A stretch of 27,648 bases of DNA from a virus: the IMG/VR virus record IMGVR_UViG_3300020190_000288, positions 1-27,648 of that record; one strand, 5' to 3'. The position numbers and the translations under genes were made by a program. The notes under the pieces are model-generated. The model saw only the letters and a program-made list of their open reading frames with translations, was not told where the DNA came from and did no database searches. Position 1 is the stretch's first letter; each line of letters begins with the position of its first letter. Below, one piece after another: positions 1-27,648 of the stretch.

Positions 1-1772
1 TTTGGAACTTTTGGCATCATTCTTGCAGGCTTTGGTTTCTTCCTTTTCGGAACATAGGGTCGCTCAAAAATGGTGCCGTCTTGCACAAGAAGGTCTCCGT
101 CTGCGTTTCTTGCATCGGGATTAAATCTCACTCTTGTTGCGCCACGTAGTGTTGCGCCAAGTTTCTTTTCTTCGAAGTCGTCAATCAACTCAATCAAATT
201 GTCATACGAATTATCATCGAGCCGGTCAATGTTCTTGATGGCCAACCCAACATCCAAGAGCTCTACATCCAGCCCCTTCTCGTCGGCCTCATTTATCGCA
301 CCCATCAGACCAATGTCATCTGCGCTATGAACAAAAAGGTGTTTGCCCGGGTTGTTGTCCTTGAAGGCATTCCAGGACGGCATTGGCGTGCCACAGGAAT
401 CGCAGCAACCACCATCATCATCTTTCCCTGAGGATGCCTCCCACCCGAAAGCATGGGCCGGACGGTTTGTGTCGGTTGGTACGTACACGACCTGTGGCTT
501 TACTTCCTCGGAAGTTCCGAACATGTATTCACTTCCTTGTGAGTGGTATGGAATTCGGAGTGTTGTGTTTACACCATCACGTCGCATTTCGGCGACGATC
601 ATGTTTTGGTCGGCGTACATAATTCTGCAAGGTCCACCAAAGTGCCTTGCCACAGCCTCGGTAAGCGCCAAACGCGCCACGTCTTGTGGGCGTGCCAGCA
701 CAACGTTTGCTGCGTAGACGTCACCGATGTGATTTTTTGTTTCAATTTCCGCTTCGTCCGACTTCTTCTTGGTATGTTCGTAGCGGTCTAGGAGTCTTCT
801 TCCCTTTGCGGCAAGTTTTGCCGCATCTGAGCGATCTTGTGGAACAGGTTCGCCCCAGGCAGCCGCTGAGAGCGCCAAACGCGTCGGTCTTCCCTTTGCG
901 TCTTTCATTGGTCCCCTGGGATTCGTGAAGAAGCGCGTAAGAAAAGAACCTTTTCTTCTCATCTTCTGTGGGGTGTCTGCGGCACCCTTGACGCCCGGTT
1001 TTAGATTTGCGCCCTCTTTGCGCTTGAAGTGCGCTCGACCGGCGGCCGTCAATCCGCCCTTTGGATCACGCAAGACTGGTTTGTCTGCTGCTTTTTCCTC
1101 TGGGCAACAATCGTCTTCAAGTGATTTGCCTTTGATTGGCACACAGTTCGGCACCATCTTGCCGCCCTTGCCCTTCTTCATTCCAACCTGCTTGTAGCCG
1201 GGCCAACACGGGCCATTTTCGGCTTTGACTTCGGTGTTTTGTTTGTCGGACTTGATTGAGATCGTTCCGGTGAGTTGGTTTGCACCGTGAAGAACCGGAG
1301 AAACTTCGTACAGTTCCACTTCTTTCAAGAGATTGGCGCTTTGTGCCGGGTCAAAAACCGCGTCTAAGGTTTTGTAGCCGATCGACCACTCTTGCTCGGC
1401 GCCAAAAAAGACGACGTTTGCAAAAGCCTCACGACCGCGTTCTGATTTTAGATTGAACTGAACCCTGGCAAACAAACCACCTACGCCACCCGAACGCATT
1501 TTGGACGGGAGCCGCGGGTCGTTGGGTGGTACTTCGTAGATTTCCAACACCTTGCCGATGGGTTCATTCCAATTGTGGCCCCATACAACACGCGGCTTGC
1601 GGCGTTTTAGGCTGCCATTGAAGGCACCCGGCAAGACCACGTCACCGACGGAGTCCTTATTGCCGATTGCGGCGACAAAACACTCAACGATTCCACGTGC
1701 CTCGTCTACGGCGACCTGGCCGTCGAGGGCCTTGTATTCGGCTGTCGAGGGTTGAATGCTCGTATTCTTCAA
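1..1772 (-). CDS. Prohead protease fused to DUF6321-like and further domains (partial, runs off left edge)
   Basis: The reverse strand is open from a TTG at 1772-1770 to base 1, giving at least 590 codons with no stop. TTG is chosen because an in-frame TAA lies at 1787-1785, CGGAG sits 7 bases upstream of the TTG, and the first in-frame ATG lies well inside the protease fold. Residues 1-180 are an HK97-type prohead (U35) serine protease, which cleaves scaffold and capsid proteins during head maturation: His66 lies in WGHNWNEPIGKV, Ser130 in EWSIGYK, and the C-terminal strand contains EVSPVLHGAN. A Cys-rich linker follows (VGMKKGKGGKMVPNCVP near 196-212, CC near 222). Residues about 232-331 match DUF6321 as I remember it (LRDPKGGLTAAGRAHF, MRRKGSFLTRFF, RLALSAAAWGEPVP, AAKGRRLLDRY). 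Residues 345-590 are unrecognised, with a CCDSC cluster at 456-460 and a basic Lys/Pro-rich segment at the edge. Known family: protease and DUF6321. Inferred: one fused polypeptide that may be self-processed. The capsid gene probably follows to the left. Confidence 0.9.
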   Translation of the reverse strand, partial: MKNTSIQPSTAEYKALDGQVAVDEARGIVECFVAAIGNKDSVGDVVLPGAFNGSLKRRKPRVVWGHNWNEPIGKVLEIYEVPPNDPRLPSKMRSGGVGGLFARVQFNLKSERGREAFANVVFFGAEQEWSIGYKTLDAVFDPAQSANLLKEVELYEVSPVLHGANQLTGTISIKSDKQNTEVKAENGPCWPGYKQVGMKKGKGGKMVPNCVPIKGKSLEDDCCPEEKAADKPVLRDPKGGLTAAGRAHFKRKEGANLKPGVKGAADTPQKMRRKGSFLTRFFTNPRGPMKDAKGRPTRLALSAAAWGEPVPQDRSDAAKLAAKGRRLLDRYEHTKKKSDEAEIETKNHIGDVYAANVVLARPQDVARLALTEAVARHFGGPCRIMYADQNMIVAEMRRDGVNTTLRIPYHSQGSEYMFGTSEEVKPQVVYVPTDTNRPAHAFGWEASSGKDDDGGCCDSCGTPMPSWNAFKDNNPGKHLFVHSADDIGLMGAINEADEKGLDVELLDVGLAIKNIDRLDDNSYDNLIELIDDFEEKKLGATLRGATRVRFNPDARNADGDLLVQDGTIFERPYVPKRKKPKPARMMPKVP

Positions 1773-1839: not shown

Positions 1840-1871
1840 ATTTACGTAAATCTTCCTGAATTTACGTAAAT
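1840..1871. repeat. Tandem perfect 12-bp palindromes, operator or hairpin candidate
   Basis: ATTTACGTAAAT occurs at 1840-1851 and again at 1860-1871. Each copy is a perfect palindrome, and the copies start 20 bp apart, about two helical turns. They lie between the portal gene, whose stop codon TGA (1873-1871) touches the second copy, and the protease start at 1772. As DNA this looks like a paired site for a dimeric regulator. As RNA the two copies could pair into a 12-bp stem with an 8-base loop. No GC-rich stem with an adjacent U-run is present, so a classical terminator is less likely. Confidence 0.6.
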
Positions 1872-4377: not shown

Positions 4378-5715
4378 ATGGATGGTGAGCCCCTATCAGG
4401 ACGAATCCGAATGACCAACTGGAATGAAGTATTGAAATATCTTGAGCCGAAGAAGGCTTTGTTTTGCCCTGAAGAACCCTCTTTGACCCAAAAAGTTTTT
4501 TTGCGCAGTTATGCCCTGGAAGCTCTTTTTGGAGGAGCTGCCGGCGGTGGTAAGAGTTCGGCCCTTCTTATGGCGGCGCTGCAATACGTGGACGTTCCGG
4601 GATATTCGGCGATTCTTTTTAGAAGGACTTTTGCGGACCTGTCGCTTCCTGGTGCCCTGATGGACAGATTCAGGCAATGGGTAGCGATGCATGATGACGT
4701 TCATTGGAACAACAACACCTATGTGGCGACATTTCCCTCCGGCGCAAGAATTTCTTTCGGATACCTTAATAATGTCAACGACTATTTGAGATACAAGGGT
4801 TCAGAATTCCAGTTCATTGGCATGGACGAGGTGACCGAAATACGGGAAAACGACTATCGATACCTGTTTTCGCGTCTTCGCCGACCAGCCAGCGGCCCGT
4901 TATCGAAGGTTCCGCTAAGGATGAGGGCGGCATCCAACCCGGCCCCAAACTGGGTCAGACAACGATTCATCGTCGAGGGCAAGAATCAGAACAGAATTTT
5001 TGTGCCATCCAAGCTCACCGACAACCCAGGCATCGACCCCGACTCCTACCGTCAGGCGTTGGCAGCGCTGGACCCGATCGAGCGCCGCCGCCTAGAAATG
5101 GGCGATTGGTGGGCGACGACACTCGGTACGTATTTTGATCGAACATGCTTCATCATCGTCGACCCAAATGAGGTGCCCCAAGTCCATTCGACAAGCAGGG
5201 CAGTTCGATTCTGGGATTTGGCAGCGAGCGAACCGACGTCAAATAATCCGGACCCAGACTGGACGGTGGGCACTTTGGTCCTTTTGGACCAGGGCGTTTC
5301 GTACATTTTGGATGTAAAACGCGCAAGACTCAAAAACGAGAAAGTGGAAAACCTCATTCTTCAGACGGCCATCGAAGACGGCCATGTTGTATCAGTTCGA
5401 ATGGAGCAAGAACCGGGTTCATCCGGTAAAGCCCTGATCGACAACTACGCGCGCTATGTGCTACCTGGCTATGACTTTTCTGGTATTAGGTCAACTGGAG
5501 ACAAAGAAACAAGAGCTAGGCCGTTTGCTGCAGCAGTAGCTAATGGAAATGTTCGCCTTGTTCGTTCTGCATGGCTAACAGATTGGCTTGATGAATTTAG
5601 CTCCTTTCCTGAGGCGTGTTCGCACGACGACCAGGTTGACTCGGCAGTTGGCGCGTTTACATTCCTCACCGGCCTGGGGTTGCCTCAAAGGAGAAAAGCC
5701 ACTATCCTCCTCTGA
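4378..5715 (+). CDS. terL: Terminase large subunit
   Basis: This 445-aa protein is the packaging motor: an ATPase that drives DNA into the prohead plus a nuclease that cuts concatemers. The ATPase domain shows Walker A GGAAGGGKSS (52-61), Walker B with FIGMDEVTE (Asp150, Glu151) and a coupling motif ASNP (185-188). The nuclease domain is RNase H-like, with Asp280 in RFWDLAAS, EQEPGSSGK near 343-351 and HDDQVDS (Asp417, Asp418, Asp421). Length fits the family. The start is uncertain. ATG 4378 has no Shine-Dalgarno sequence. ATG 4411 is preceded by AGGA at a usable distance and would remove 11 residues outside the ATPase fold. No small terminase is recognisable in this window. The gene is divergent from the portal and is followed after 38 bases by the recombination genes. 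Confidence 0.96.
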   Translation: MDGEPLSGRIRMTNWNEVLKYLEPKKALFCPEEPSLTQKVFLRSYALEALFGGAAGGGKSSALLMAALQYVDVPGYSAILFRRTFADLSLPGALMDRFRQWVAMHDDVHWNNNTYVATFPSGARISFGYLNNVNDYLRYKGSEFQFIGMDEVTEIRENDYRYLFSRLRRPASGPLSKVPLRMRAASNPAPNWVRQRFIVEGKNQNRIFVPSKLTDNPGIDPDSYRQALAALDPIERRRLEMGDWWATTLGTYFDRTCFIIVDPNEVPQVHSTSRAVRFWDLAASEPTSNNPDPDWTVGTLVLLDQGVSYILDVKRARLKNEKVENLILQTAIEDGHVVSVRMEQEPGSSGKALIDNYARYVLPGYDFSGIRSTGDKETRARPFAAAVANGNVRLVRSAWLTDWLDEFSSFPEACSHDDQVDSAVGAFTFLTGLGLPQRRKATILL

Positions 5716-12661: not shown

Positions 12662-12710
12662 TCGCAGTAGCTCATATTCGTAGCTGATCTCCTTATTGAC
12701 GGAGGAAAAA

Positions 12711-14162
12711 ATGCCAGGTGTAGTTGTAACGACAGCGGTCCGCACGGGCCCAACCAATGCTCAAGTCATGCCGACCGCGACGCTCTTTGTTGCGGGCGTG
12801 ACCGTGAGGGGTCCTGAAGGAAAGGCTATTGCCGTTTCAAGCATCGCCGAGTTTGAAGCCGTTTACGGTGGATACACATCAGACGGTTGGGTGAATCAAA
12901 CTCTTGAAACATTCTTTGAAGAGGGTGGCGCGCGCGCTTATGTTTCGCGCGTTATCCCAGATGATGCACTCAATGCAACTCTCGAACTCGACAATGCAAC
13001 GGCGGACACTTGCATGGTGCTTACTGCTTCCGGTGAAGGTGCATGGGCGAACGCTGGTGGCTTGAAGGCTTCGGTGGCAAACACCGCTGGCTCATTCAAA
13101 ATCACCATCCTTCTCGACAACGAGATTGTTTATGCAACGTCGCTACACACGACGGTCGCTGATGCGGTTGACGAGATTAACGGAAGCGCCACTGGCGGTC
13201 TGTACATCACGGCGGCTGCCGGTGCCAACTCGGGTGTTCCTGTCACAATTGCCGCATCCAACTTCGCTGGCGGCGCAGATGGCGGAGCGCTTGATGATGG
13301 CGACCTTGCTGAAGCGCTTGCGTTCTTCATTGATTCGTTTGGTCCGGGAGCAGTTGCGGCGCCCGGCTTCTATTCGTCGGGCAATTATGACGCGTTGATT
13401 AGCCACGCAGTTCAATACGGAAGAATTGCGCTTCTTGGATTCGATCGCGATGAGACGCCGGCCGCAGCAGCTGCAACAGCTGCCGGTTATGCGGATGCTG
13501 TCGGCGCCGAGTACACGGCATTCTTCTACCCGTGGGTGAAGATTCCAAACGGCAACCTGACATCGGTAATTCCTGCTGAGGGTTATGTTGCGGCAAAGCG
13601 CGCGAAGGTTCACAACGAAAAAGGCCCGTGGACGCCATACGCTGGCGCCTCGACGGAAGCTGCTTTCGTGACTGCTCCCTACAAAGTGCTGTCGTCTCAA
13701 GAAGAGGCGCAACTTGTCGATGCCGCGGTCAACCCAATCAAGTTGGTCAACGCAACCGTGCGCGTCTATGGTGCACGTTCGGTCTCTAGCGACGTAAGCA
13801 ATTTCCGTTTCATCAACGGTCGCGAGACACTGAACTACATCGTGTACGAGTCAAAGTATTCTCTTGAGTCGTTGGTGTTCCAACCAATCGACGGCCGTCG
13901 CGCACTGTTCGCAAGAATCGGCTCGACGCTGACAGCGATCATGGACAGAATCCGTGTTGCTGGTGGCGTCTATGAGGCGGTTGATGCGAATGGCAAGCTT
14001 GTCGACCCCGGCTACTCGGTTGTGGTCAATGACTCGCTGAACCCGGTCAGTCAGCTGGCCAGTGGAACGATCAGGGCGCGCGTCGGCGCCAGAATCTCTT
14101 CGATTGGTGAAACGATTGAAGTAGAGATCGTCAAATCCAACCTTACGGCGTCAGTTGCCTAA
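12711..14162 (+). CDS. Tail sheath protein
   Basis: The ATG at 12711 has GGAGG at optimal distance, so it is preferred over an in-frame TTG at 12696. The 483-aa product forms the contractile outer tube. N-terminal features fit sheath proteins: a start of MPGVVVTTAVR, then MPTATLFVAGVTVRGPEG, FEAVYGGYTSDGWVNQTLETFFEEGGARAYVSRV. The C-terminal part holds the conserved core: QEEAQLVDAAVNPIKLVN, RFINGRETLNYIVYE, LVFQPIDGRRALFARIGST, IEVEIVKSNL. Residues about 90-210 are the variable outer domain. The presence of sheath makes this a myovirus. The tube gene follows after 19 bases. Confidence 0.95.
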   Translation: MPGVVVTTAVRTGPTNAQVMPTATLFVAGVTVRGPEGKAIAVSSIAEFEAVYGGYTSDGWVNQTLETFFEEGGARAYVSRVIPDDALNATLELDNATADTCMVLTASGEGAWANAGGLKASVANTAGSFKITILLDNEIVYATSLHTTVADAVDEINGSATGGLYITAAAGANSGVPVTIAASNFAGGADGGALDDGDLAEALAFFIDSFGPGAVAAPGFYSSGNYDALISHAVQYGRIALLGFDRDETPAAAAATAAGYADAVGAEYTAFFYPWVKIPNGNLTSVIPAEGYVAAKRAKVHNEKGPWTPYAGASTEAAFVTAPYKVLSSQEEAQLVDAAVNPIKLVNATVRVYGARSVSSDVSNFRFINGRETLNYIVYESKYSLESLVFQPIDGRRALFARIGSTLTAIMDRIRVAGGVYEAVDANGKLVDPGYSVVVNDSLNPVSQLASGTIRARVGARISSIGETIEVEIVKSNLTASVA

Positions 14163-15395: not shown

Positions 15396-18300
15396 GTGGC
15401 TGACGAACGCGTATCAATAGTAATCGATATAGACGTCAAGGATGTTGCGTCTATTGCTGCCGTACAAGCGGCTCTCGCAAATCTAAACAGGACCACAAAG
15501 CATAACGCCGCTTCAATGCGGATCATGCGTGGCGAGAACCAGAAGGTGACTGCCGGTCTTATTGGTGCCGGCAAGGGAGTGAAAACCCTTCAGGGACAGA
15601 TGGGCAAACTCAACACCGCTGCAAAAATTTTCCAGAAAACCGCCCGCGTCCTCATGTTCACGATTATCGGTATGGGCATTGAATTCGTGATTACGGCCGC
15701 GGCGCTCGCGTCAGTGAACCTTGTGTTTGCAACTGGTCGATTTCTTGCCAAAGCTTACAACTACACGATGCAGGCGTTGGCGGGAACGCTCGCGGCTGTT
15801 GGCGTAGCAGCGCTTGGAGCTGCGGCGGCGTTTAGGGAGGTGACCGCCGCCCAGCAAGCTTTTAGATTCAAGGGATCAGACAATCATGCAGCCGGAATCG
15901 CTGATGCGACTGGGGCACTAAGAAATCTGTACGCGGATTCGACGCTGGCTACGGCAGGTATCACTGCGCTGAACCAGGCGTTTGCGGCGGTGACCAAAAA
16001 TTCGGCATTTACGGCGCAAACCCAGGCAAGCCTTAAGGCGATGATGGATTTTGCTGCCGCGTCAGGAGACACCACCAAGGGTTTGAGTGCCGCAGCTTCT
16101 TTTCTTGGTTTGATGCAAAAAGAATCAAAATTTACGAAAGAGGCTTTGGCTGCGGCCGCACAAGTCGGTCCGGAGTTTGATAAAGCACTCAAGAAATTGC
16201 GAGGCTCCGGAAAAATAAAAGACACCAAGGACCTGATGACCGCCATACAGTCCGGCGCACTAGCCAAAGAAGCGGGCGTGACTGGTGCAGCAGACGCAGT
16301 GTCAATGACCTTGGTTGCTCAATTCAAAGGATATATGACCCAACTTTTTGGTGAGATGGCTTCCATCGGTCAAGACCTTTTGAACCCGTTCAAAAAAGCA
16401 CTGTTTGACATATTCCTCGTTGTCAGAAGGACGATGAGAAGAATCAGCTCGGACCTTCTCGCTTTTGGTAAAGGTAGTGCGATCGACGCGATAGTAACCG
16501 CAGTCGAAAAGATTTCAGATTTTTCGGTCAACCTGTTCAGAAAGTATTTGCCTGCAGCTGACGGATTTTTTGCTCGAACCAACAAGGTGTTTGTAGCAAT
16601 GGAGCGGTACACGAGAAGATTCCTCGACGTGATTCGGCCGCTTCAAAAAGGCGGAACGATCATCATTGATATGTTCGGTAAACCGATTTCGGAGATATTC
16701 AAGGGTTTTGGCAGAAACATCCGGGATTTCAGCACGCTAGCCGTGGAAAACAAGGACAAATTTTTGGAATTCGGTGAGTCGCTAAAAAATCTTGTGGCTG
16801 CGTTTTTTGATATGTCGCACCAGTTCAAAAAAATGTTCACCGAAGCTCTCCCCATAATCAACAGGGTCGTCAATGCTTTGGCTCTTTTGATTAGAATTGT
16901 CGGGGATTTTTTCGGTCTTATGTCAAAAGCCGGACCGCTTGGTGCATTCATGCCGGTGCTTGGGGCCATCATGGCGATAATGAAGGGACGGCGTTCCGGT
17001 GGTGGTATAGGAGGCAAGTTTTTACGCGGTTCGTATGGACTGGCGATGGGTAATACGCCCGGCATACCTTTTGCCATGCGTGGCGCACAGGGTCCGGACG
17101 CAGCCTTGGCGGGCGCCATGGGGGGAATAAATACGGCAGCCCAAAACCAAACAGCCGCGGCCAGTAATTTGCAAGGTTCGGCACAGAAACAGCAGTTTGC
17201 CGCGGTGGAGTTGTCGGGTGCGGCACGCGCGTTGTCGTTAGCGGCGCAGGCTAACATGCGCTTTGGGGCGGCAACGGGCGCAAACGGAATGGCCGCACAG
17301 ATCGCCACCAAACAGCGACAAAATTATGCAATTCTGAAAAATGCGCAGGGTCAATACATCGATCCGACAACCGGAAAAGTCATAAGAAATACCATAGCGA
17401 CCGATGAGGCATTTCAAAATTACATGAATCGAAATGTCGCCGTTACTGCGAAAATGAATCTTCCGCAACCGGCGGCTGGTAATGCGATCGTGACTGATGC
17501 GACTGCACCGTTATACGGTCAACATAGTGGCTTTATGCGCATGATGCAAAGACGGCAAGCACAAATGGAGACTTCCGGCCCGTTTCACCATCTTCCAGGC
17601 TTTGTTCCCAACACGGCAAAACCCTTCCCTGGTACCGGTACCCCTGTTAGAAATCCGTTCATGCCGGTCGTGTCGACACCAAGCACGCCAGTGATGGTTC
17701 CGCAGCCTATGGTTTTACCCGCGGGGACTGTCGCGCCTGGAGCCGGAGCCGCCTTGACGGGAGGTATGGGGGGATTCAGATCGGGTATAGCAAATTTGTT
17801 CCCTAACTTCCGAGGCAACGCGCAAACAGCCAAAGGGTCCATAAGCCAGTACTACAGAGCGATGAAAGCTGCCGGCAAGAATCGTTCGGCGATCGTAGGA
17901 GCCGGATTGAAAAAAACTGCTTTGGCTCTCACCGGAAGCAGTTTGATGAGTGGGGGATATCGAGCAGCCATCCAGGCACAGCAAGAAGCATTCGTGGAAA
18001 AGGGTGGAGATCCCAACGCCTTCAAAGCCAAGAGGGGCGCAGCAGTCAAGTCTGCACTAAAAGCAAACATGGGACTGGGGAACATGGCATTGAGCTTGGG
18101 TGGATCGTATTTGGCGAATAAATACGGCACCGAAGAAGCACAAGGCGCACTGCAGGCGGGAGCTGGTCTGATGATGATGTCCCCACTGGCCGGTATCGGA
18201 GTTGCGGGAATCGGAACCGCAATGTCATCGCAGACAACCAAGGGTGGCGTCATGTCCGGTATGGTCGGCGGAGCAGCAACAGGCGCCCTTATCGGAAGTT

Positions 18301-20138
18301 TCATACCCGGAATCGGAACTGCCCTCGGAGGAATAATTGGCGCCGGCGTGGGTGGGCTTGTTGGCTGGTGGAAGTCAGACCAAAACAAAAAGAAGATGCG
18401 CGACGACGTCCAGAAAAGAATGTCTGGAGCAATGTTGGTTCCGATCGCTGCGGCGATGGTTGAGGGGAGTTCGAAAGCCGCAATAGATGCGGCGGAAGCC
18501 AATGTCAAAAAAATGAAAAAGATGAAAGGTGCGGGCTCCGACGCTCAAGGCAAGTATCTCGACAAACTCGTGACGGACGGTCTCATTTCGGTGGAGGAAA
18601 GGGATCGAGCCTTCGCAGACCCGAATGCACGACAAGACCTTTTCGACAAATTAAATAAAGACGCAGCGCTTCAACTCAAGGTCACGACGAAAGTGATGGG
18701 CCGTTTCGATAAGACCATGGACGGGCTAACACAGGCGACCGGCATGACCGAAGAAGAAATCATGGCACTTGCCTCAAAGATGGGCGTTGACCTTTACGAC
18801 GAAACCAAAACGCTCGAGGAACAAATTACCGCGTTGGGTAAAGCGATGAAACTGACGGCGAAAGAACTTGACAATGCGATCAAGGATGTGGTCCTCAAGA
18901 ATTTGGACAGGCTCGAAAACTTCAAGACGAATTCCGAGCTAGAAGAAGCTGTCGACTCGGCACAAAACGCTTTTAACAGTGCTCCGAACATGGACACCGC
19001 CCGGAGCGTGATCGGTCAGATGGTGACGTTCCTGCAAACAAAATATCCGAACAATCAAGCAAAAGTTCTTGGCTCACTGTTCGAAATGTTCGATCCATCG
19101 AGCGACAATTATGTCTTTGGCCCGAAAGGCCCACTGGGGGGCGCAAAAAATATGCCCACAGATAAACGAAAAGAAATGGAAGACGCAATCAACAAGGAGT
19201 TTTTGACTCCTGCCATAGCTGATGCGGCAGGAATCGGCGCCACGCAAATCGGTGGAATGTTGAGCCAGGAAGAGATTTTGGGCGGCCCTCAGGCAATGAA
19301 AAACGTAGAGGGGGCGATTGCGACGGTTCTCAGGAGCGGAGACCAGGGAAGAATAGACAAGATGCAAAACTTTTTGAAATACGGCAATCTTGCTAACAAG
19401 AGTCCTGCCGAAGCGGCGAACGCGATCGAGAGAGCCCTTGGTTTCGAGCCGGGAAGCATATTTGCCGGAGGTTCTTTCACGAAACGAGACACAACAGAAC
19501 TTTTCGCAAAGCTTTCACTAGAGAAAGAAACTCAAAAGCAGCTCACGGCGGCAGTAGCCAATGGACTCAACGAGAAACCGAGTTGGTGGGATAATGACGT
19601 TCCGGATTGGTGGACCAGAGGTTTGAAAGCGAAGTCTGATAGTGGGGGAACGTTTACGTTGCTTCCTGGTGATGACACCAAAACCCCGCGAGCAAAACAA
19701 TTCGGCGACACATCGGTTTCAAGGAGACTGCGGTCGACTTTAGGTGCGCATGCCGCAATGGATGGCAGACTGACCGGCAAGCGAACAATCACGAGCTCGT
19801 ACAGAACTTTCAATCTCGGTTCGCCAAGCTCGGATCACGCGTCGGGGGCGGCATACGACCTGACCGGTCAAAATCTTGGTCAGTACGCAAAAATGGTTCG
19901 CAGCGGGGGTGGCTTTGCAGAATTCCACGGAGTGAATGCCAATCGCCACTTGCATGTGGTGCCCAAGACGGGGGATACGTATTCGACAAAAGCGGAATCC
20001 ATGGGCGGAACAACACCGATGGCTCCCGTGGTAAACGTAAACGTATACCCATCGCCGGGAATGAACGTCGACCAGCTGGTGGCCAAAACAATTCGTGCCC
20101 AGGAAAAAGCCATGCGCGACATACGAGAGAGGACGTAA
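15396..20138 (+). CDS. Tape measure protein with C-terminal M15-type peptidase domain
   Basis: This 1580-aa protein sets tail length and passes through the tail during injection. The GTG start at 15396 has TGAGG 6 bases upstream. The N-terminal part is helical, with a hydrophobic segment near residues 85-150 rich in Ala and Ile. Residues about 760-800 and other stretches are Gly/Pro/Ala-rich. Residues about 950-995 form a glycine-zipper-like segment (MVGGAATGALIGSF, GTALGGIIGAGVGGLVGWW) able to insert in membranes. Near the C-terminus a zinc peptidase pattern is seen: SSYRTF, SDHASGAAYD (His1481, Asp1488) and NRHLHVV (His1518, His1520), like the M15 (VanY/D-Ala-D-Ala peptidase) group. It could cut cell-wall peptides at entry. 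The final 50 residues are Val-rich and helical. Confidence 0.93.
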   Translation: MADERVSIVIDIDVKDVASIAAVQAALANLNRTTKHNAASMRIMRGENQKVTAGLIGAGKGVKTLQGQMGKLNTAAKIFQKTARVLMFTIIGMGIEFVITAAALASVNLVFATGRFLAKAYNYTMQALAGTLAAVGVAALGAAAAFREVTAAQQAFRFKGSDNHAAGIADATGALRNLYADSTLATAGITALNQAFAAVTKNSAFTAQTQASLKAMMDFAAASGDTTKGLSAAASFLGLMQKESKFTKEALAAAAQVGPEFDKALKKLRGSGKIKDTKDLMTAIQSGALAKEAGVTGAADAVSMTLVAQFKGYMTQLFGEMASIGQDLLNPFKKALFDIFLVVRRTMRRISSDLLAFGKGSAIDAIVTAVEKISDFSVNLFRKYLPAADGFFARTNKVFVAMERYTRRFLDVIRPLQKGGTIIIDMFGKPISEIFKGFGRNIRDFSTLAVENKDKFLEFGESLKNLVAAFFDMSHQFKKMFTEALPIINRVVNALALLIRIVGDFFGLMSKAGPLGAFMPVLGAIMAIMKGRRSGGGIGGKFLRGSYGLAMGNTPGIPFAMRGAQGPDAALAGAMGGINTAAQNQTAAASNLQGSAQKQQFAAVELSGAARALSLAAQANMRFGAATGANGMAAQIATKQRQNYAILKNAQGQYIDPTTGKVIRNTIATDEAFQNYMNRNVAVTAKMNLPQPAAGNAIVTDATAPLYGQHSGFMRMMQRRQAQMETSGPFHHLPGFVPNTAKPFPGTGTPVRNPFMPVVSTPSTPVMVPQPMVLPAGTVAPGAGAALTGGMGGFRSGIANLFPNFRGNAQTAKGSISQYYRAMKAAGKNRSAIVGAGLKKTALALTGSSLMSGGYRAAIQAQQEAFVEKGGDPNAFKAKRGAAVKSALKANMGLGNMALSLGGSYLANKYGTEEAQGALQAGAGLMMMSPLAGIGVAGIGTAMSSQTTKGGVMSGMVGGAATGALIGSFIPGIGTALGGIIGAGVGGLVGWWKSDQNKKKMRDDVQKRMSGAMLVPIAAAMVEGSSKAAIDAAEANVKKMKKMKGAGSDAQGKYLDKLVTDGLISVEERDRAFADPNARQDLFDKLNKDAALQLKVTTKVMGRFDKTMDGLTQATGMTEEEIMALASKMGVDLYDETKTLEEQITALGKAMKLTAKELDNAIKDVVLKNLDRLENFKTNSELEEAVDSAQNAFNSAPNMDTARSVIGQMVTFLQTKYPNNQAKVLGSLFEMFDPSSDNYVFGPKGPLGGAKNMPTDKRKEMEDAINKEFLTPAIADAAGIGATQIGGMLSQEEILGGPQAMKNVEGAIATVLRSGDQGRIDKMQNFLKYGNLANKSPAEAANAIERALGFEPGSIFAGGSFTKRDTTELFAKLSLEKETQKQLTAAVANGLNEKPSWWDNDVPDWWTRGLKAKSDSGGTFTLLPGDDTKTPRAKQFGDTSVSRRLRSTLGAHAAMDGRLTGKRTITSSYRTFNLGSPSSDHASGAAYDLTGQNLGQYAKMVRSGGGFAEFHGVNANRHLHVVPKTGDTYSTKAESMGGTTPMAPVVNVNVYPSPGMNVDQLVAKTIRAQEKAMRDIRERT

Positions 20139-20141
20139 GCA

Positions 20142-20813
20142 ATGTCAAATTTGGCAACGACTGGCAGAACAATCATCACTTTGAACGTGAACGTGACGCT
20201 GACGAATTGGCGGGCGGGTACGGCTGCCAAAACGGAGGGCAATCCGCCGACCATTACCCAGATTGCCGGCGCCAATAAATCTTTTCAGTTTCCTTTCAGG
20301 CCGCTCCCGATCCAACACGAGGGCTACGGTCCGGAGATGAACGAGGTCGAGCGTCCGTATGACATCCCGATTATGGATGTAAAATCCGGAAAATTGCGTC
20401 GTTTTAGTTTTGATGCACCGCTGACGATCCTTTCGGACGGAATTTCAAAGCCGATTGACTCGGATTTTAAGCTGTTGCAAGAGATGGCCGATGACGCGAT
20501 TCCGGTTCGTTTCATCGATATGCCCCCATCCATATCTTCGACAAACTGGTACATCGAGGATCTCACCTTCAATCAGGAACGAATGAAGATAAACGGGCCA
20601 AGCACGAGAATAAGTGCAAGTTTGAGTTTTGTTGAGTTTGCGCCACTTAGCACAAAATTTGTTTTTCTACGACCGATTTCTTATGGTGTGCCGACAGACA
20701 AAGTTGCAAGCAAAATAGTGACGACACCCCAAGACACCTTCCCAAGATTGTCTGCCTATAGCACAGGCACTGTCTCCGGCTTGAAGCAGAATCCTCAAGA
20801 AACTGGGGGGTGA
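20142..20813 (+). CDS. Baseplate/tail hub-associated protein
   Basis: This 223-aa protein follows the tape measure after 3 bases with GAGAGG upstream. It is mostly beta: FQFPFRPLPIQHEGYGPEM (49-67), YDIPIMDVKSGKLRRFSFDAPL, TNWYIEDLTFNQERMKINGP and ASLSFVEFAPL. The pattern of an N-terminal FxF-like strand, a PLTILSDG strand and a C-terminal 'SFVEF' strand resembles proteins of contractile tails that join tube and hub (gp53/LysM family neighbours). I see no LysM repeat. Position before the hub protein supports the call. Confidence 0.78.
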   Translation: MSNLATTGRTIITLNVNVTLTNWRAGTAAKTEGNPPTITQIAGANKSFQFPFRPLPIQHEGYGPEMNEVERPYDIPIMDVKSGKLRRFSFDAPLTILSDGISKPIDSDFKLLQEMADDAIPVRFIDMPPSISSTNWYIEDLTFNQERMKINGPSTRISASLSFVEFAPLSTKFVFLRPISYGVPTDKVASKIVTTPQDTFPRLSAYSTGTVSGLKQNPQETGG

Positions 20814-20818
20814 TCTAA

Positions 20819-22351
20819 ATGGCTAGCAATTCACCACTCCCGTATTATCCGACCGCTGAGGCGGCGAAGGTAAAAGAAGCGGATATTTTTTTGTATGGAA
20901 ACATCAACCTGCTTCTACGTGTGCCGAATCCGGAGAAACCCAAGCAACTAGAAACCCTTAAATCTATTTCCATAGCAAGAAAGGTGACCATCGGTGATCG
21001 CGTTCGGACAGTTCAAGTTGGAATTCCAACATTGAACACCGACGGAAAACAGTTGACCAATGCACAAGCAGAGGTTTTGTTCCAGCAAACCGGGTCACAT
21101 TTGGGTTTTTTCGCCGACGTAAAAACCGCGACAAAATATCTAATAAAATTGTCGGAGGCAAGCGGATACGTTCAAAAAACCATCCTAGCCGCAGAGCGTG
21201 CAGGCGTAAACGAGGAGGGGTTGTCGACTGTTGATTTTTTACCTTTTCCATTCCAGGCTTATCAGTCTGGTTTGGACCCGGCCGGTAAATTAGCCAAAGC
21301 GACGGTAGTCCAACCCAAAAGATTGGGCGAGCTCATATCCATTCCGGAAATACCCCCGACGTCTGAGGCGGCCATCTCAATTGCGGAACGCCTGACGTCC
21401 ATCTCTGTAAGTTACGACATTGGGGCGACCACAGAGGTTTCCCTTAAACTTGTCGACAACGACTTTTCTCTAATGGAGTCGAATTATTTCGTAACTCGCC
21501 GGGTCATAAAGTATCGCGGTCGAGAATACGAAGTTGCAGTAATTGAGGTCGAAAGCGAATCGGGCATCCCGGTTTTGAACGTAAAACTCCGGAGCCGAGC
21601 CGTGCAAAGAATGAAACGAGAAAAGACCGCAAAAAATTTGCAAGCCCCAAACGGGTATGAGCTGGCAAAAAAATCTGCTGCTGCTTTTGGCCTTTCATTC
21701 TACGGGGAACAAAAAACCAATAAACCACAAACCATTGTGCAAGCTCAAACAAAAGATAACGACGACTCACTATGGGATGTGCTGACAAGAACCGCCGGTG
21801 ATGCAAACTTTGTTTGTTTTGAAATGGACGGAACATTAATATATGCGTCAGAAAAACACCTCATGGGCGTATTCGGTGCGTATTCATTCGGCACTGACCC
21901 GAGCAACGGACAACCATTTACAGGAATTGGCTACAAGCCGAATGCAAAAAATTTTATTCCGTTGTGCTACGTGCCGCCATATATGATCGCCGACCTAAAA
22001 GTTCAAAAATCTGATATTCCGGATTGCATAGACAGGTTTCGGCTCATAGAAAACCCGTCTTTCAGGCAGTCAGATAACGACGTTTTTGAAGCGGACGGCT
22101 CATGTTCGATTGCCAGACCCAATGGGTGCTTGTTGCGCCCTGGTCATACCGTATTGGTCGGGCCATTCCCGACATTTTTTTCCGGTCTTTATTTGGTCAA
22201 TTCTGTTTCGTTCAACGAGGGCGAAAACACTCCGGTGGAGGTAAGTTTCAAGAGTCCCCAAAGAACAGAAAAAGACAAAAAAAATAAACCGTTGGTCGGT
22301 ATCAGGCCGGGGACTAGAAGTTTTGCAAGATTTAAGGATTCACAGCAATGA
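20819..22351 (+). CDS. Baseplate hub protein (gpD / gp27-like)
   Basis: This 510-aa protein has a strong purine-rich ribosome site (GGGGGGTGA). The N-terminal 190 residues hold strands and helices not matched to a known motif. The middle reads RLTSISVSYDIGATTEVSLKL VDNDFSLMESNYF and NVKLRSRAVQRM, and then KSAAAFGLSFYGE and DSLWDVLTRTAGDANFVCFE (roughly 317-337), all typical of late-control D/XkdQ-like hub proteins. It forms the ring that carries the spike and links to the tube. It overlaps the spike gene by 4 bases (ATGA), a usual arrangement. Confidence 0.85.
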   Translation: MASNSPLPYYPTAEAAKVKEADIFLYGNINLLLRVPNPEKPKQLETLKSISIARKVTIGDRVRTVQVGIPTLNTDGKQLTNAQAEVLFQQTGSHLGFFADVKTATKYLIKLSEASGYVQKTILAAERAGVNEEGLSTVDFLPFPFQAYQSGLDPAGKLAKATVVQPKRLGELISIPEIPPTSEAAISIAERLTSISVSYDIGATTEVSLKLVDNDFSLMESNYFVTRRVIKYRGREYEVAVIEVESESGIPVLNVKLRSRAVQRMKREKTAKNLQAPNGYELAKKSAAAFGLSFYGEQKTNKPQTIVQAQTKDNDDSLWDVLTRTAGDANFVCFEMDGTLIYASEKHLMGVFGAYSFGTDPSNGQPFTGIGYKPNAKNFIPLCYVPPYMIADLKVQKSDIPDCIDRFRLIENPSFRQSDNDVFEADGSCSIARPNGCLLRPGHTVLVGPFPTFFSGLYLVNSVSFNEGENTPVEVSFKSPQRTEKDKKNKPLVGIRPGTRSFARFKDSQQ

Positions 22352-22794
22352 CAGAAATCAATCACGGTCAAGGCTTAAAACTCAACCCCCAAAAGGGATC
22401 TTCTGCGCCTGGTCGTCCAACCGGGGTGTTTATTGGGAAGGTAACAAGGACGTCTGGGGGCGTGTACGTATCCATACCCAGCCTCACAGGCGGCCTCACA
22501 AACATCAATTTTGGCCCGTGCAAAGTCGTTGGATTGTACCCCACGGTTGGCAGTGCGGTGCTTTGCACTTTTTTGGAAAACAGAAACGACGACGTAGTTA
22601 TTTTGGGTAAAATTATTGCAACAAACATTCTTCAAAATACGGGCACCCCGGTGGTCGCAACCGATGCGACGACCAAGCAATACGTTGACGAAAAGGTGAC
22701 CATTCTTCAAACTCAAATCAACAGCCTCCAAACAGCCCTAACCGCCTTGACGAACAGGTACAACTCCCACGTGGCGCACCCGCCACCGGCCTGA
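22348..22794 (+). CDS. Baseplate spike protein with OB-fold (gp5/gpV-like)
   Basis: This 148-aa protein is shorter than many spikes. Residues 20-95 form an OB-fold (GVFIGKVTRTSGGVYVSIP, GLYPTVGSAVLCTFLENRNDDVVILGKI). Residues 104-148 switch to DATTKQYVDEKVTILQTQIN, a tail-fibre-type ATxxYVD motif, followed by a coiled coil and a His/Pro-rich end (NSHVAHPPPA). It would sit at the tip of the hub and pierce the cell envelope. The short coiled coil replaces the long beta-helix of T4-type spikes. It is translated from an ATGA overlap with the hub gene. Confidence 0.83.
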   Translation: MTEINHGQGLKLNPQKGSSAPGRPTGVFIGKVTRTSGGVYVSIPSLTGGLTNINFGPCKVVGLYPTVGSAVLCTFLENRNDDVVILGKIIATNILQNTGTPVVATDATTKQYVDEKVTILQTQINSLQTALTALTNRYNSHVAHPPPA

Positions 22795-22819
22795 TCGTCA
22801 ACGGCGCTCGTAAAAGAAA

Positions 22820-22828
22820 TGGCAAAAT
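22820..22828 (+). promoter_or_regulatory. Extended -10 candidate before the gp25-like gene
   Basis: TGG-CAAAAT ends 6 bases before ATG 22835, and no Shine-Dalgarno sequence is present in the 40-base gap. The first base differs from the TANNNT rule, so this is the weakest of the leaderless candidates. Confidence 0.25.
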
Positions 22829-22834
22829 AGGTAT

Positions 22835-23128
22835 ATGGCAACTTTCAAAATTCCGTTTCGGATTGTCAATGGATCTGTTGCGTCCCATACAGACGGGTCA
22901 CTTGAAAGCAAGGCTCAGGTTGTGTCGTTCGCGGTTTATACACATCGCGGCGAACTTCCCCTTGAGCCAACCTTCGGTATAACCGATCCGACGTTTGAAC
23001 CTAGTAACATTTTGGAGGCGCGCGCAGTGTTGACGCAGTTCTGGCCAGAAATCATTATTGAAAATTTTGAACTGAAAGACGTCGACAACAAAGGTCGGGT
23101 TGGTGTTTCAATTAGGGTAAGCGGGTAA
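22835..23128 (+). CDS. Baseplate wedge protein, gp25-like
   Basis: This 97-aa protein matches T4 gp25/P2 gpW-like wedge subunits: FKIPFRIVNGSVA at the N-terminus, a central KAQVVSFAVYTHRGELPLEPTFGI (27-50), then ARAVLTQFWPEIIIENFEL. The central block contains the family EPR-like position (here RGELPLEPTFG). The protein joins the sheath end to the wedge. It is followed after 2 bases by the J-like protein, the standard order. Length is typical. The start may be leaderless. Confidence 0.9.
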   Translation: MATFKIPFRIVNGSVASHTDGSLESKAQVVSFAVYTHRGELPLEPTFGITDPTFEPSNILEARAVLTQFWPEIIIENFELKDVDNKGRVGVSIRVSG

Positions 23129-23130
23129 TC

Positions 23131-24627
23131 ATGGGTTCGGTAGATTTTTCACGATACATAGACTTGACGCTTGACGATAAAAGTCCGCAAGAAGTTTATG
23201 AAGAAGCCGTCGAATACGGCCGAAACAGCCTCCCAGAACTAAACCTGCGAGCGGGAACGCTGGAAGACGCTTTGATGCAGGCTTTTTCGTACGTTGGATC
23301 AACCACAATTGGTGCAATTAATCGTCTGCCAGACGGTTTGATGGAGGGAATCCTAAAGCTTCACGGTCTCGAAAGACTTGAGGCAACATTTGCGGAAATT
23401 GATGTTCTGTTCACGGTTTCAGAAAATGGCGGCACCGTACCAGCCGGAACGTCGGTAATTTTCAATTATGACGACGGAAACTCACAAACGCAATACGCAT
23501 TTGAAACAACGCAGACCGTAACCGCCGGTTCTTCGTCTACGACCGTTGCCGCGTTGGTTCGATCACTTACGGCCGGAGTCATACCAGCGATTCCTATAGG
23601 AACCAATTTGAGCATTGGCGAACCGAGCTCGACGATCTTTCTGTGTGAAACAACGGGCAGCCTTTCGCAAGGTGCGGGAGACGAGACATCGGATGAGTAT
23701 CTTGCTCGGGGAACAACATACCTACAGTCGCTTTCAAGGGTTTTGACCACGGCCAACCAGGTACAAAATTTTATTCTCACAACGTTCTCCGGGGTAAAAC
23801 GTTGTCGCGTTTACGATCTGGCAAAGGCGATCGAATTCGACGCTGGAATAACGTCTACCATTTCCGGTTCGGGAACAAACGTAACAATTGCGACCAACGC
23901 CAGTTTTAGCGCAGCATGCGGAGCCGATCCCGTTTACAGGGTTTTGACTCCGGAGTATTACGGCAACATCGATGAGGCGCCATACGGGGACCCAAACTAC
24001 GCAAATTTTAAGTCCGGAACATACCAGGGTTCTTTTACGGGCAACAATCTAAATATAACGGGCAACGTAGTTTCTGTGCCGGCAACCGGGCCGGCCGATG
24101 TTATCAATCTGACGAAACTCGATTTGTTTGAAATTGAAGGCAATCCAAAACCGGGTCATTTCGTAGTTTTTGTTTGTGGTGAAGGTGGCAAACCGGTAAG
24201 CATGGAACTCAAGCAAGAAATTCGTGATGCTCTCGAAGAACGAATCGTTGCTGGACTTTCTTTCAAAATTTTGGATGTTTGGACATACGACATCAAGTTT
24301 GTAATCTCAATCAAAGCCGACGCAAGTTATTTGGTGGCCGACGTGATTGAAACCCTCAAAACATCCATCGAGGACGACATTTCCCCCGACAACTGGTCAG
24401 AGTGGGATTCCGTCGTGAGAATTTTTGATGTCGTCGTAAAGGCGTCCAAAGTGCCCGGCGTTGCGTACGTGTTTCAGGTGACGGGATCAATTCCCAGCTA
24501 TCCAGATACGGACCCGGGAAACAGCTTGCTTTTTGCGGAATCAACTAGCGGTTCGCAACTGATTGGTTACGCGCCGACATACGCAGGACTCCTACCGAAA
24601 GCCACAGTTGAAGTAACGGTTGCATAG
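23131..24627 (+). CDS. Baseplate J-like protein (gp47-like)
   Basis: This 498-aa protein forms the baseplate wedge with the next protein. It shows the gpJ layout: helical N-terminus (GTLEDALMQAFSYVGSTTIGAINRLPDGL), a strand domain with FTVSENGGTVPAGTSVIF, the motif ETSDEYLARGTTYLQSLS then TANQVQNFILTTFSGVKRC (about 190-232), and a C-terminal repeat-like domain (QEIRDALEERIVAGLSFKI; FDVVVKASKVPGVAYVFQV). In the middle (residues about 245-330) is an extra beta insert with GTYQGSFTGNNLNITGNVV. The gene is 2 bases from gp25-like and 3 bases from the next gene. Confidence 0.92.
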   Translation: MGSVDFSRYIDLTLDDKSPQEVYEEAVEYGRNSLPELNLRAGTLEDALMQAFSYVGSTTIGAINRLPDGLMEGILKLHGLERLEATFAEIDVLFTVSENGGTVPAGTSVIFNYDDGNSQTQYAFETTQTVTAGSSSTTVAALVRSLTAGVIPAIPIGTNLSIGEPSSTIFLCETTGSLSQGAGDETSDEYLARGTTYLQSLSRVLTTANQVQNFILTTFSGVKRCRVYDLAKAIEFDAGITSTISGSGTNVTIATNASFSAACGADPVYRVLTPEYYGNIDEAPYGDPNYANFKSGTYQGSFTGNNLNITGNVVSVPATGPADVINLTKLDLFEIEGNPKPGHFVVFVCGEGGKPVSMELKQEIRDALEERIVAGLSFKILDVWTYDIKFVISIKADASYLVADVIETLKTSIEDDISPDNWSEWDSVVRIFDVVVKASKVPGVAYVFQVTGSIPSYPDTDPGNSLLFAESTSGSQLIGYAPTYAGLLPKATVEVTVA

Positions 24628-24630
24628 GCA

Positions 24631-25890
24631 ATGCGAGCATTCAACAGACTTACCGAGGCTCAAGCCAAACTCACGGCCGTAAATGGCGACGGACTTTGGA
24701 GCACGCAAAATCTGACGGTAAGCAACAGCGGATTTTCCTCGTTTCGGCCTAACGGTTTTAGGCAGCTTGCACTCAAGCAAACCGATCCCCTGCTGACGAA
24801 CAAGCTCACGCTTTCCTCAATTTCAACCCCGCAAAGCGACCTGAACAAGGAAATGTCTTTCTTTTTTGCTGTACGGATGGAATCGGGTGGTTCTGTCACT
24901 GTAAAAATCACAGAAGACGTTTATGGTCAGGTCGACATTGAAGAAACTGTCGACATTACATCAAATACAAACATCTACCCAGCTTCCTCCAACTTTGGCT
25001 CAACCGTACAAAACTTCAAATGGACCGTTGTGCGGGTGCCGTATTTCAAAACCCCGGGAACAAATTTGGCTGCCTCTTACAACATTGAGATTTCTTTCGA
25101 CCCGACGGAATCTATAGAAGAATTTTATTTTTCGTCCCCTGTTTTGGTTGGTTACTATGACTTCTTTTTCAATAACACCGTTCTGGCGGATTTGGGAAAA
25201 AGTTTGCCTCATTGGCTGATCGACAAAGATATTGAAAATTCCGCCAACCTAAATCCCGATATCTTGATGACGCGATATATGGACGTCGCCTCCGGTCATC
25301 TTGACCTTGCTTTTGATTACATGAGAAAATTTATTTATCTTGATATTCAGGGCGGTTACACCCCGGCCAACCCCGATACCAAGAGCATATTGGTTGACCC
25401 GACCGTGGCCGATTATGTGACCCTTCTGTGGCTGCTGGTGTTTACGTTTACAAAACCGATTTCTAGATTTCAGCTTGTTCCTGATTACATTCCTGACCCT
25501 TTCATTCTTGACGAGAGCGCGCTCGATGGAACAGACAGACTTTTGCTTTCAAGTTCCAACGACACATCTCCGCCGGAATTTTCCCGCGAACTGCAAATTC
25601 AACTTTTAAGATGGCAGGCCTACACTGGCTACTACGGCGGTTTTGCTGGAACGATCAACGCCGTAAAAGAGGCGGCGAAACAAATGTTGTTTGGTTCACA
25701 AACCTTGACAGTCGATTACGACTACGATGTCGAACCGTGGGTCATCAACTTGACTTCGCCGTATAATCAAACTTTCGGGGGGGACTTTACTTTGATTGGG
25801 GAGTCGTCACCGCTTGTTATGGAAGCGGTTTCATACGCAAAACCCTTGGGGGTTTTGGTTACGCACCAAATGACCGCATTCCAACCGTAA
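24631..25890 (+). CDS. Baseplate wedge protein, gpI-like partner of J
   Basis: This 419-aa protein lies right after J-like, where phages of this type encode the gpI-type wedge protein. Residues 1-170 are a beta-rich lectin-like domain (SVTVKITEDVYGQVDIEETV, FKWTVVRVPYFKTPGTNL, YNIEISFDPTE). Residues about 170-419 contain the gpI-like part: LPHWLIDKDIENSANL, RYMDVASGHLDLAFDYMRKFI, a proline/aromatic-rich region and LRWQAYTGYYGGFAGTINAVKEAAKQML (the family RGT-like segment is GGFAGTINAV), ending with AKPLGVLVTHQMTAF. The beta domain is an addition relative to the shorter P2 gpI and might support fibre attachment. That is inferred. Confidence 0.78.
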   Translation: MRAFNRLTEAQAKLTAVNGDGLWSTQNLTVSNSGFSSFRPNGFRQLALKQTDPLLTNKLTLSSISTPQSDLNKEMSFFFAVRMESGGSVTVKITEDVYGQVDIEETVDITSNTNIYPASSNFGSTVQNFKWTVVRVPYFKTPGTNLAASYNIEISFDPTESIEEFYFSSPVLVGYYDFFFNNTVLADLGKSLPHWLIDKDIENSANLNPDILMTRYMDVASGHLDLAFDYMRKFIYLDIQGGYTPANPDTKSILVDPTVADYVTLLWLLVFTFTKPISRFQLVPDYIPDPFILDESALDGTDRLLLSSSNDTSPPEFSRELQIQLLRWQAYTGYYGGFAGTINAVKEAAKQMLFGSQTLTVDYDYDVEPWVINLTSPYNQTFGGDFTLIGESSPLVMEAVSYAKPLGVLVTHQMTAFQP

Positions 25891-25893
25891 GAC

Positions 25894-25920
25894 ATACGCG
25901 AAACGTATTTGGGGTATACT
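25894..25920 (+). promoter_or_regulatory. Inverted repeat and -10 (TATACT) before the lysis/fibre genes
   Basis: Right after the gpI-like stop, ATACG (25894-25898) and CGTAT (25904-25908) form a perfect 5-bp inverted repeat around CGAAA. TATACT (25915-25920) follows, one base from the -10 consensus. The next gene has GGAGG and ATG 25940. The repeat overlaps where a -35 box would be, so it could be an operator or a small terminator. No good -35 box is present. Confidence 0.35.
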
Positions 25921-25939
25921 TTTAGTACTGGAGGCTTTC

Positions 25940-26173
25940 ATGGCCGACAACGAAGAAAGCTCACTTGACGGATTGTTTGAACAGCTTGTTCGGGAGATAC
26001 TCCCGTCCACGGTAATCAGCAACTTTCTGTTGGTGGCCGAAGTTGTAAACGAGGATGGAACAGACCTAAACGTCACCGTGTCATCAAGTTTGACGCCTTG
26101 GCTTGCACTGGGAATGCTTCGATCAGCGGAGGAAATGATCACGTCCGGTGAATGCAATTTCAATTCAGCCTAG
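25940..26173 (+). CDS. Conserved small actinophage-type protein, 77 aa
   Basis: A GGAGG lies 5 bases before ATG 25940. The protein has a helical acidic N-terminus (SSLDGLFEQLVREIL), a beta hairpin (LLVAEVVNEDGTDLNVTVS) and the segment LTPWLALGMLRSAEEMI (51-67). That last block is familiar from a small protein family (DUF7213 as I recall) in phages of Actinobacteria, of unknown function. It stands 9 bases before the holin gene. Its position suggests a lysis or late role, but nothing in the sequence shows one. Confidence 0.83.
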   Translation: MADNEESSLDGLFEQLVREILPSTVISNFLLVAEVVNEDGTDLNVTVSSSLTPWLALGMLRSAEEMITSGECNFNSA

Positions 26174-26182
26174 GAGAAAAAC

Positions 26183-26398
26183 ATGAGTGCAAAATTCATT
26201 AAAGACACAGCGGAGCGGGCAGTCACTGCATTTTTGACCGCCTATCTTGGTGCTTGGGTTGCCGCAGGCAGCTCTTTCGACGCCCTGGTCGACAACGATA
26301 ATCTGAAAATCGGAGCTACTGCTGCCGCATTGTCGGTTGCCGCTGCGTTCGGCTTGAAGAAAGTTGGTCCGAATAAGGATTCAGCGTCAGTTCTCTGA
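26183..26398 (+). CDS. Holin, r1t-like, 71 aa
   Basis: The ATG at 26183 follows AGGAGAAA. The protein has a short charged N-terminus (MSAKFIKDTAERA), a first hydrophobic helix (VTAFLTAYLGAWVAAGSSF, 14-32), a short loop (DALVDNDNLKIG) and a second helix (ATAAALSVAAAFGL, 45-58), ending with Lys/Gly/Pro. Size, two helices and the start KDTAERAxxxF match the r1t/actinophage holin family, which opens the cytoplasmic membrane for an endolysin. No endolysin lies in this window. The tape-measure peptidase is the only cell-wall enzyme visible. Confidence 0.82.
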   Translation: MSAKFIKDTAERAVTAFLTAYLGAWVAAGSSFDALVDNDNLKIGATAAALSVAAAFGLKKVGPNKDSASVL

Positions 26399-26405
26399 AG
26401 TCCTT

Positions 26406-26422
26406 CGCCTCATTGGCAGGCG
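26406..26422 (+). repeat. Short inverted repeat after the holin gene
   Basis: CGCCT (26406-26410) and AGGCG (26418-26422) form a 5-bp stem with a 7-base loop. No U-run follows. It sits in the 69-base gap between the holin and the next gene, which also holds TACAAT (26431-26436), a possible -10 element. A weak terminator or attenuator is possible. Confidence 0.25.
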
Positions 26423-26467
26423 CCCTAATCTACAATGGGTTGAAGTAGTAGTTAGAGGTGCCTGTCA

Positions 26468-26869
26468 ATGATTGCCGGAACTTACAACATTGTTTGTCAG
26501 CAGGGGGCCGTGCTCAACCTGCTCATTCAAGTTGAGCAACCCGATCTTGCCGCGGATCCCACGGGTGGAACCTATGAACCGTTTGACCTAAGAGGCCATA
26601 CCGCAAGAATGCAGGTGAGAAGGACCCTTGAAAGTTCTACTGTGATTGCGAGCTTGACCACAGAAAATGCTGGTCTGAAAATAAATCCAGATTCGGTTGA
26701 GCCTTTCCCGGGAACTGAATACAACAATCTGCAAATTCTTATGACAAGTGCGGCGACATCGGCACTGACAAATGGCGGCGTGTACGACATTGAAATAATC
26801 AATGAAGACGGGTATGTTTCGAGACTCCTCGAGGGGGAGTTTAGGTTCGTTTATGAGGTAACCAGATGA
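26468..26869 (+). CDS. Tail-fibre-associated phage protein, 133 aa
   Basis: This protein starts at ATG 26468 after AGAGGTG. It has a compact beta fold: AGTYNIVCQQGAVLNLLIQV (3-22), EPFDLRGHTARMQVRR (37-52), ASLTTENAGLKINPDS (60-75), then GGVYDIEIINEDGYVSRLLEGEFRFVYEVTR (103-133). This layout (DL-GxTARMQVR, YDIEI, RLLEGxF, EVTR) is shared by many phage proteins placed beside fibre genes. Its function is not established; a virion or baseplate role is likely from position. It overlaps the next gene by 4 bases. Confidence 0.82.
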   Translation: MIAGTYNIVCQQGAVLNLLIQVEQPDLAADPTGGTYEPFDLRGHTARMQVRRTLESSTVIASLTTENAGLKINPDSVEPFPGTEYNNLQILMTSAATSALTNGGVYDIEIINEDGYVSRLLEGEFRFVYEVTR

Positions 26870-27279
26870 CAACGAATTACGTGACAGTAGAGCCGAACAA
26901 AGTCATTGTTCAGCTTCACAGCCCGTACGGCGCACGGGGTCGTGGTTGGTTCTCGGGATACGGAGACCCCGATAACGACGTCGGAAAGCCCGGCGACTTC
27001 TACATCGACCTTGATACCCAAAGGTATTTTGGACCAAAGACAGAAGCTGGTTGGCCGGCGCCATTCTATACGGCCGGAGCGATTGTGACTCGATATGAGC
27101 ACGTCCAATCAAGCCCTTCTGCCGAATGGATCATTAATCACGGACTCGGGGGAAGACCGTCAATCGTTGTCGTTGACAGCGCCGGCACGGTAGTCATCGG
27201 AGAAATCACTTACGTTTCCAACCTCGAAATTCGTGTAAACTTTACATCGGCGTTCGCCGGTTACGCCTATCTAACCTAA
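26866..27279 (+). CDS. Tail fibre / receptor-binding-type protein, 137 aa
   Basis: The gene starts in an ATGA overlap with the previous one. Residues 1-63 show GKPGDFYIDLDTQRYFGPKTEAGWP, a motif common in phage fibre proteins with collagen-like or short beta spikes. Residues 75-137 match a small beta domain seen in many phage fibres: HVQSSPSAEWIINHGLGGRP (79-98), SIVVVDSAGTVVIGEITYVS, IRVNFTSAFAGYAYLT. Such short domains are often modular and exchanged between phages. The protein is probably part of the fibre or its tip. No chaperone is seen. Confidence 0.83.
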   Translation: MTTNYVTVEPNKVIVQLHSPYGARGRGWFSGYGDPDNDVGKPGDFYIDLDTQRYFGPKTEAGWPAPFYTAGAIVTRYEHVQSSPSAEWIINHGLGGRPSIVVVDSAGTVVIGEITYVSNLEIRVNFTSAFAGYAYLT

Positions 27280-27288
27280 GGAAATTGC

Positions 27289-27642
27289 ATGGCCACAAAG
27301 TTCGTAACAAACCTTGACCTCAATAGCAATCAAATTCTTAATGGTCGCTTTCAGGTCCTTGACACAGACCCGCTAACGGGGAATTTCAACGGCCGCGTTT
27401 ATTTCAATTCGACCGAAGGCACACTCAAGTACTACTTCATTCCAACGGGCAGCCCTTCTGGATCGTGGCGCAAACTCGTAAGAGGCATTACTTCCGACAC
27501 TACAGCTCTGACAGCAACTGAAGCGTCTGGCAATTTCTCGCTCTCCATCGCGAATGCGACAACTTCTGTTTCTGGTCTCATGTCCGATACGGACAAGGCA
27601 ATTCTCGATGATTCAACAGCGGCGAATGTGGCCGGAAAATAG
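27289..27642 (+). CDS. Tail fibre N-terminal segment, stopped by TAG (possible frameshift)
   Basis: The ATG at 27289 follows TAAGGA. The 117-aa product begins KFVTNLDLNSNQILNGRFQV, a common attachment start of long phage fibres, has GRVYFNSTEGTLKYYFI and ends with GLMSDTDKAILDDSTAANVA. In related fibres this last block is followed by more sequence (VKRD-like, then repeats). Here TAG at 27640-27642 comes right after GGA AAA. In the -1 frame the visible bases read AAA ATA GTC AAA (K-I-V-K), which resembles that usual continuation. So the gene may be cut by a real frameshift, by an assembly or sequencing error in the A-run (27636-27639), or may be read through by frameshifting. The window ends 6 bases later. 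Confidence 0.75.
   Translation: MATKFVTNLDLNSNQILNGRFQVLDTDPLTGNFNGRVYFNSTEGTLKYYFIPTGSPSGSWRKLVRGITSDTTALTATEASGNFSLSIANATTSVSGLMSDTDKAILDDSTAANVAGK
27636..27642 (+). promoter_or_regulatory. Possible -1 slip site at the end of the fibre gene
   Basis: AAAA (27636-27639) directly precedes TAG. A one-base backward slip on AAA would avoid the stop and read ATA GTC AAA. This is not a full X-XXY-YYZ heptamer, so a programmed event is less supported than an indel. Confidence 0.3.
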
Positions 27643-27648
27643 TCAAAA

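Follow-up and report, generated by a model that had tools for sequence, protein, structure and literature searches.

Is the fibre-like gene at the right-hand end of this virus contig really interrupted, or is the interruption a product of sequencing and assembly? The window, i.e. the whole stretch of 27,648 bases analysed here, is a complete linear virus record and was not excised from a longer genome. An open reading frame on its plus strand (27289-27642) encodes 117 amino acids and terminates in ...STAANVAGK, with a TAG at GGA-AAA-TAG. The run AAAA at 27636-27639 lies immediately 5' of this TAG, and 9 bases are left before the contig ends; the apparent break thus falls within the final 13 bases of an incomplete contig. 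Both observations of the original prediction were reproduced, since the frame does end in NVAGK with a TAG after AAAA, and the -1 frame reads ...GKIVK until the window ends. Because the A-run is only 9 bases from the end of a contig that constitutes the whole record, an error at the contig end was the first suspect. As described below, the break in the reading frame is most likely not a real biological feature.

The gene is whole in a sibling contig

The best match of the 117-amino-acid protein was found in a sibling contig, IMGVR_UViG_3300021093_000689 (L082, 14,145 bases), with 100% identity over the 117 residues. The features of the window and their counterparts in L082 are as follows:

17544..27648, plus strand: stretch common to the window and IMGVR_UViG_3300021093_000689 (L082:1-10106), 99.87% identity
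27289..27642, plus strand: 5' part of a fibre-like virion protein gene, shortened to 117 amino acids in the window; full length in L082, 498 amino acids (L082:9746-11242)
27636..27639, plus strand: A-run, with four A in the window and five in L082; sole indel of the 10.1 kb overlap
27640..27648, plus strand: apparent TAG stop and the final 6 contig bases; these 9 bases are identical to L082 beyond the missing A

Over its 10,106 alignment columns, the overlap shows 12 substitutions and a single gap, which lies in the A-run. When the final 1.5 kb of the window was forced into an end-to-end alignment with L082, no other difference appeared. Moreover, the window's part of the overlap contains 197 runs of at least four identical bases, none of which carries an indel except the A-run.

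In L082, the gene forms one open frame of 498 amino acids, which reads NVAGKIVKRNATGDFSAGTITANLTGNVTGNVTGNVTG... and includes the expected IVKR block. The long open frame with fibre-like sequence, anticipated past the window's edge, is indeed present there and adds 381 amino acids. The predicted GKIVKR... continuation is therefore correct, and it is reached in frame without a slip, because the A-run of L082 has one extra A.

The 12 substitutions that separate the window from L082 span 17670-24814; ten of them are amino-acid changes, and seven lie at 17670-17937, less than 400 bases from L082's own left end. The motif GGAAAATAG occurs in two copies in the window, versus 0.19 expected; 3 of 100 shuffles also reached two copies, and nothing was drawn from this excess.

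Relatives that reach the site keep the frame open

An IMG/VR scan with the 117-amino-acid protein yielded 83 relatives; the analysis covers the 80 best. Each frame was translated from its matched start, and the site was taken as the residue aligned with Lys117. The site was reached in 79 of these 80 relatives, as the contig edge of the remaining one (L051) precedes it. The frame was open through the site in all 79 (60 distinct translations), with a stop there in none, and the open reading frame was closed in 73. The smallest run-ons beyond the site, of 10 and 13 amino acids (L028 and L075), belong to frames still open at the contig edge. An IMG/VR pattern scan for the junction with 0-3 extra bases retrieved only L082 and no second four-A copy, in a search from which the window's own record may have been absent.

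Another relative, L038, has a fibre-like gene shortened to 230 amino acids (L038:5001-5693). As compared with L046, 158 bases are absent near gene position 565, and the expected protein resumes in another frame.

Differences at other contig ends and the origin of the break

We also examined 59 contig ends in the loci of the relatives, 33 of which had a sibling of at least 95% identity extending past the end. Nine of these were excluded for lack of a sibling at 99.5%, which left 24 ends whose closest sibling is 99.5% identical or more; some contigs served as both test and sibling, so that the ends are not independent. Counted against the closest sibling over the 24 ends, the differences by distance from the end were:

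0-10 bases: 9 in 240
10-25 bases: 2 in 360
25-50 bases: 3 in 600
50-100 bases: 3 in 1,200
100-200 bases: 2 in 2,400
200-500 bases: 0 in 7,200
500-1000 bases: 0 in 12,000
1000-1500 bases: 2 in 12,000

Thus, the last 100 bases (2,400 in total) held 17 differences, versus 2 in 24,000 at 500-1500 bases. The 17 came from 6 ends of 5 contigs (L008, L010, L021, L063 and L066). L063 and L066, which have a common sibling, L065, gave 10 of the 17, and within 25 bases of the end they account for 10 of 11; without these two, the counts were 7 in 2,100 for the last 100 bases versus 1 in 21,000 at 500-1500. Differences are therefore concentrated near contig ends in this small control set, with an effect size that is rough because most of the control differences come from few contigs. 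Some of this excess may reflect genuine variants at which assembly halted. All 17 terminal differences were substitutions, with no indel in the last 100 bases of any of the 24 ends, and 18 of the 24 showed no difference there at all. The looser set of 33 ends likewise had no gap in the final 100 aligned columns. At the left end of L063 and at both ends of L066, the last 2-3 bases disagree with L065, and the sequences are otherwise near-identical there.

Taken with the intact frame of L082, the single indel at the A-run and the excess of differences near control ends, these data indicate that the interruption is very probably an assembly or sequencing error at the contig end. This reading is further favoured by the frame that is open in 79 of 79 relatives and by the lack of a second four-A copy in the IMG/VR scan. 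In addition, at least one k-mer length of shared sequence would normally be expected after a genuine variant in a de Bruijn assembly; only 9 bases follow the A-run here, which would again favour an end error. The real gene would then be a single uninterrupted frame of about 498 codons, as in L082. A run of five A would have lost one base just 9 bases short of the contig's end, and the resulting frame shift would have exposed a chance TAG. We infer that the base was lost in sequencing or assembly, not in the phage.

The window resembles known terminal errors at metagenome contig ends in that one base is missing from a short homopolymer at most 13 bases from the end, the sibling's frame is intact, and differences concentrate near other contig ends too. 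It departs from them in that the control ends carry substitutions only, or no difference in the last 100 bases. A one-base indel as an end error was not itself reproduced in the control, which counts against the contig-end explanation, as does the fact that loss of one base from a five-base run is uncommon for short reads.

The same absence of indels at control ends agrees with the strongest alternative, a real one-base deletion in the window's strain, which would be a sporadic event that inactivates or truncates the fibre-like gene and has no regulatory meaning. Single-base loss in A-runs is a common mutation class, and the window and L082 may not be one clone, given the 12 substitutions, 10 of them amino-acid changes, in 10.1 kb. 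However, such a deletion would lie in the contig's last 13 bases while no other indel occurs in 10.1 kb, and none of the 79 relatives is broken at the site. We thus consider a sporadic deletion unlikely, though it deserves more weight than any of the regulatory explanations considered below.

The A-run is not conserved among relatives

A run-length switch or slip site under selection should be conserved. The A-run is not: 4 of the 79 relatives have five A and 6 have four A, with at most three in the remaining 69. Together with the open frame in all 79, this makes a conserved phase-variation tract, a programmed slip or a split gene unlikely. Among the four options originally offered, a base error in the A-run is the best supported. 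The absence of stops at the site in the 79 relatives and the unconserved run speak against the other three (split fibre, programmed slip, phase variation).

In the case of phase variation, slipped-strand changes in the A-run would switch a receptor-binding protein between full-length and truncated forms. The window and L082 are near-identical and differ in run length exactly at the A-run, as do copies of known phase-variable phage receptor-binding genes. However, a run of 4-5 bases is short for a contingency tract, the run is unconserved, and the off-frame form occurs in none of the 79 relatives, so that on and off forms do not coexist among them; the truncated copy was found only at this contig end. 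Phase variation is accordingly very improbable. We give equally little credence to its population form, in which five-A phages (full fibre-like protein) and four-A phages (117 amino acids) would coexist and the contig would end where the assembler met both. If true, such a two-form population would mean that an environmental phage with a contractile tail switches a virion surface protein through run length.

The least credible of these mechanisms, with a probability close to negligible, is a programmed -1 frameshift at A-AAA-TAG that yields one short and one long protein. In its favour, a tRNA paired with AAA might move back by a single base within AAAA, and translation in the -1 frame matches the expected protein up to the window's edge. 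However, L082 and the other relatives need no slip, as their long protein comes from a single frame (79 of 79), and the site is by direct reading not a canonical X-XXY-YYZ heptamer. The window has only 6 bases after the TAG. A split gene was rejected, as the frame runs open through the site in every relative that reaches it (79, from the best 80 of 83).

With the contig-end error as the preferred reading, the case is chiefly cautionary: before an apparent frameshift within the final tens of bases of a virus contig is called phase variation or recoding, it should be compared with overlapping contigs.

Identity of the fibre-like protein

The 117-amino-acid part gave modest matches in PHROGs, the best of which (E 4.6e-09) was to a family without a named function, and no match in Pfam. 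The 498-amino-acid protein of L082, which also had no match in Pfam, had its best match in the 'head decoration' family PHROG 2647, at E 1.6e-59 and with residues 2-399 of 498 as the best stretch. Among PHROGs families with a functional label, 'tail fiber protein' came next, at E 4.6e-28; the matches included several 'tail fiber' families. A protein of cyanophage PSS2 matches the L082 protein with 50.8% identity over residues 174-352, and one of three PSS2 records names it 'capsid decoration protein'. In contrast to a head decoration gene, however, the gene here lies downstream of the baseplate-J and holin genes and, in L082, three open reading frames before an open 675-amino-acid protein with CBM_5_12 and tail-fibre family matches. 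Such a neighbourhood is easier to reconcile with a tail fibre than with a head protein. The name 'fibre' in the original prediction is therefore reasonable in view of the tail fiber PHROGs and is unproven, as the best match is labelled 'head decoration'. The window gene and its L082 counterpart are here called fibre-like, and any role in receptor binding would be putative.

A total of 359 phage records contain partial relatives of the 498-amino-acid protein, and no relative spans 80% of its length; the records include 196 of Mycobacterium, 48 of Synechococcus and 30 of Gordonia phages. A GTDB genome scan detected four loci, of which two belong to Acetobacterium wieringae DSM 1911 and the other two to MAGs (Phycisphaerae and Comamonadaceae). 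Their best segments are 31-51% identical, and these four loci do not fix the host.

The AlphaFold prediction for the 498-amino-acid protein was of low confidence (mean pLDDT 55.9, pTM 0.24) and poor except for a C-terminal beta domain. Values of at least 90 were obtained for 59 of the 498 residues, and block means were 91-93 from residue 431 on. A PDB fold search with this predicted structure returned no match at E <= 0.001; the weak leads were R-pyocin fibres (E 0.04-0.13).

Neighbouring genes

The upstream neighbour of the fibre-like frame encodes a 137-amino-acid protein, whose matches in 9 phage records all cover less than 80% of it. Its C-terminal part (window 26866-27279) and that of the fibre-like protein (L082:11015-11239) look alike and perhaps represent a shared domain; the BLASTP match between the two parts was weak (E 0.028 in a single comparison, 12 of 45 identical). 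Other genes of the window include:

3-1772, minus strand: long open reading frame
1871-4156, minus strand: portal gene with a Mu F-like head morphogenesis domain
4378-5715, plus strand: terminase large subunit
12696-14162, plus strand: tail sheath gene

The terminase and portal genes, on the plus and minus strands, respectively, are divergent in the window.
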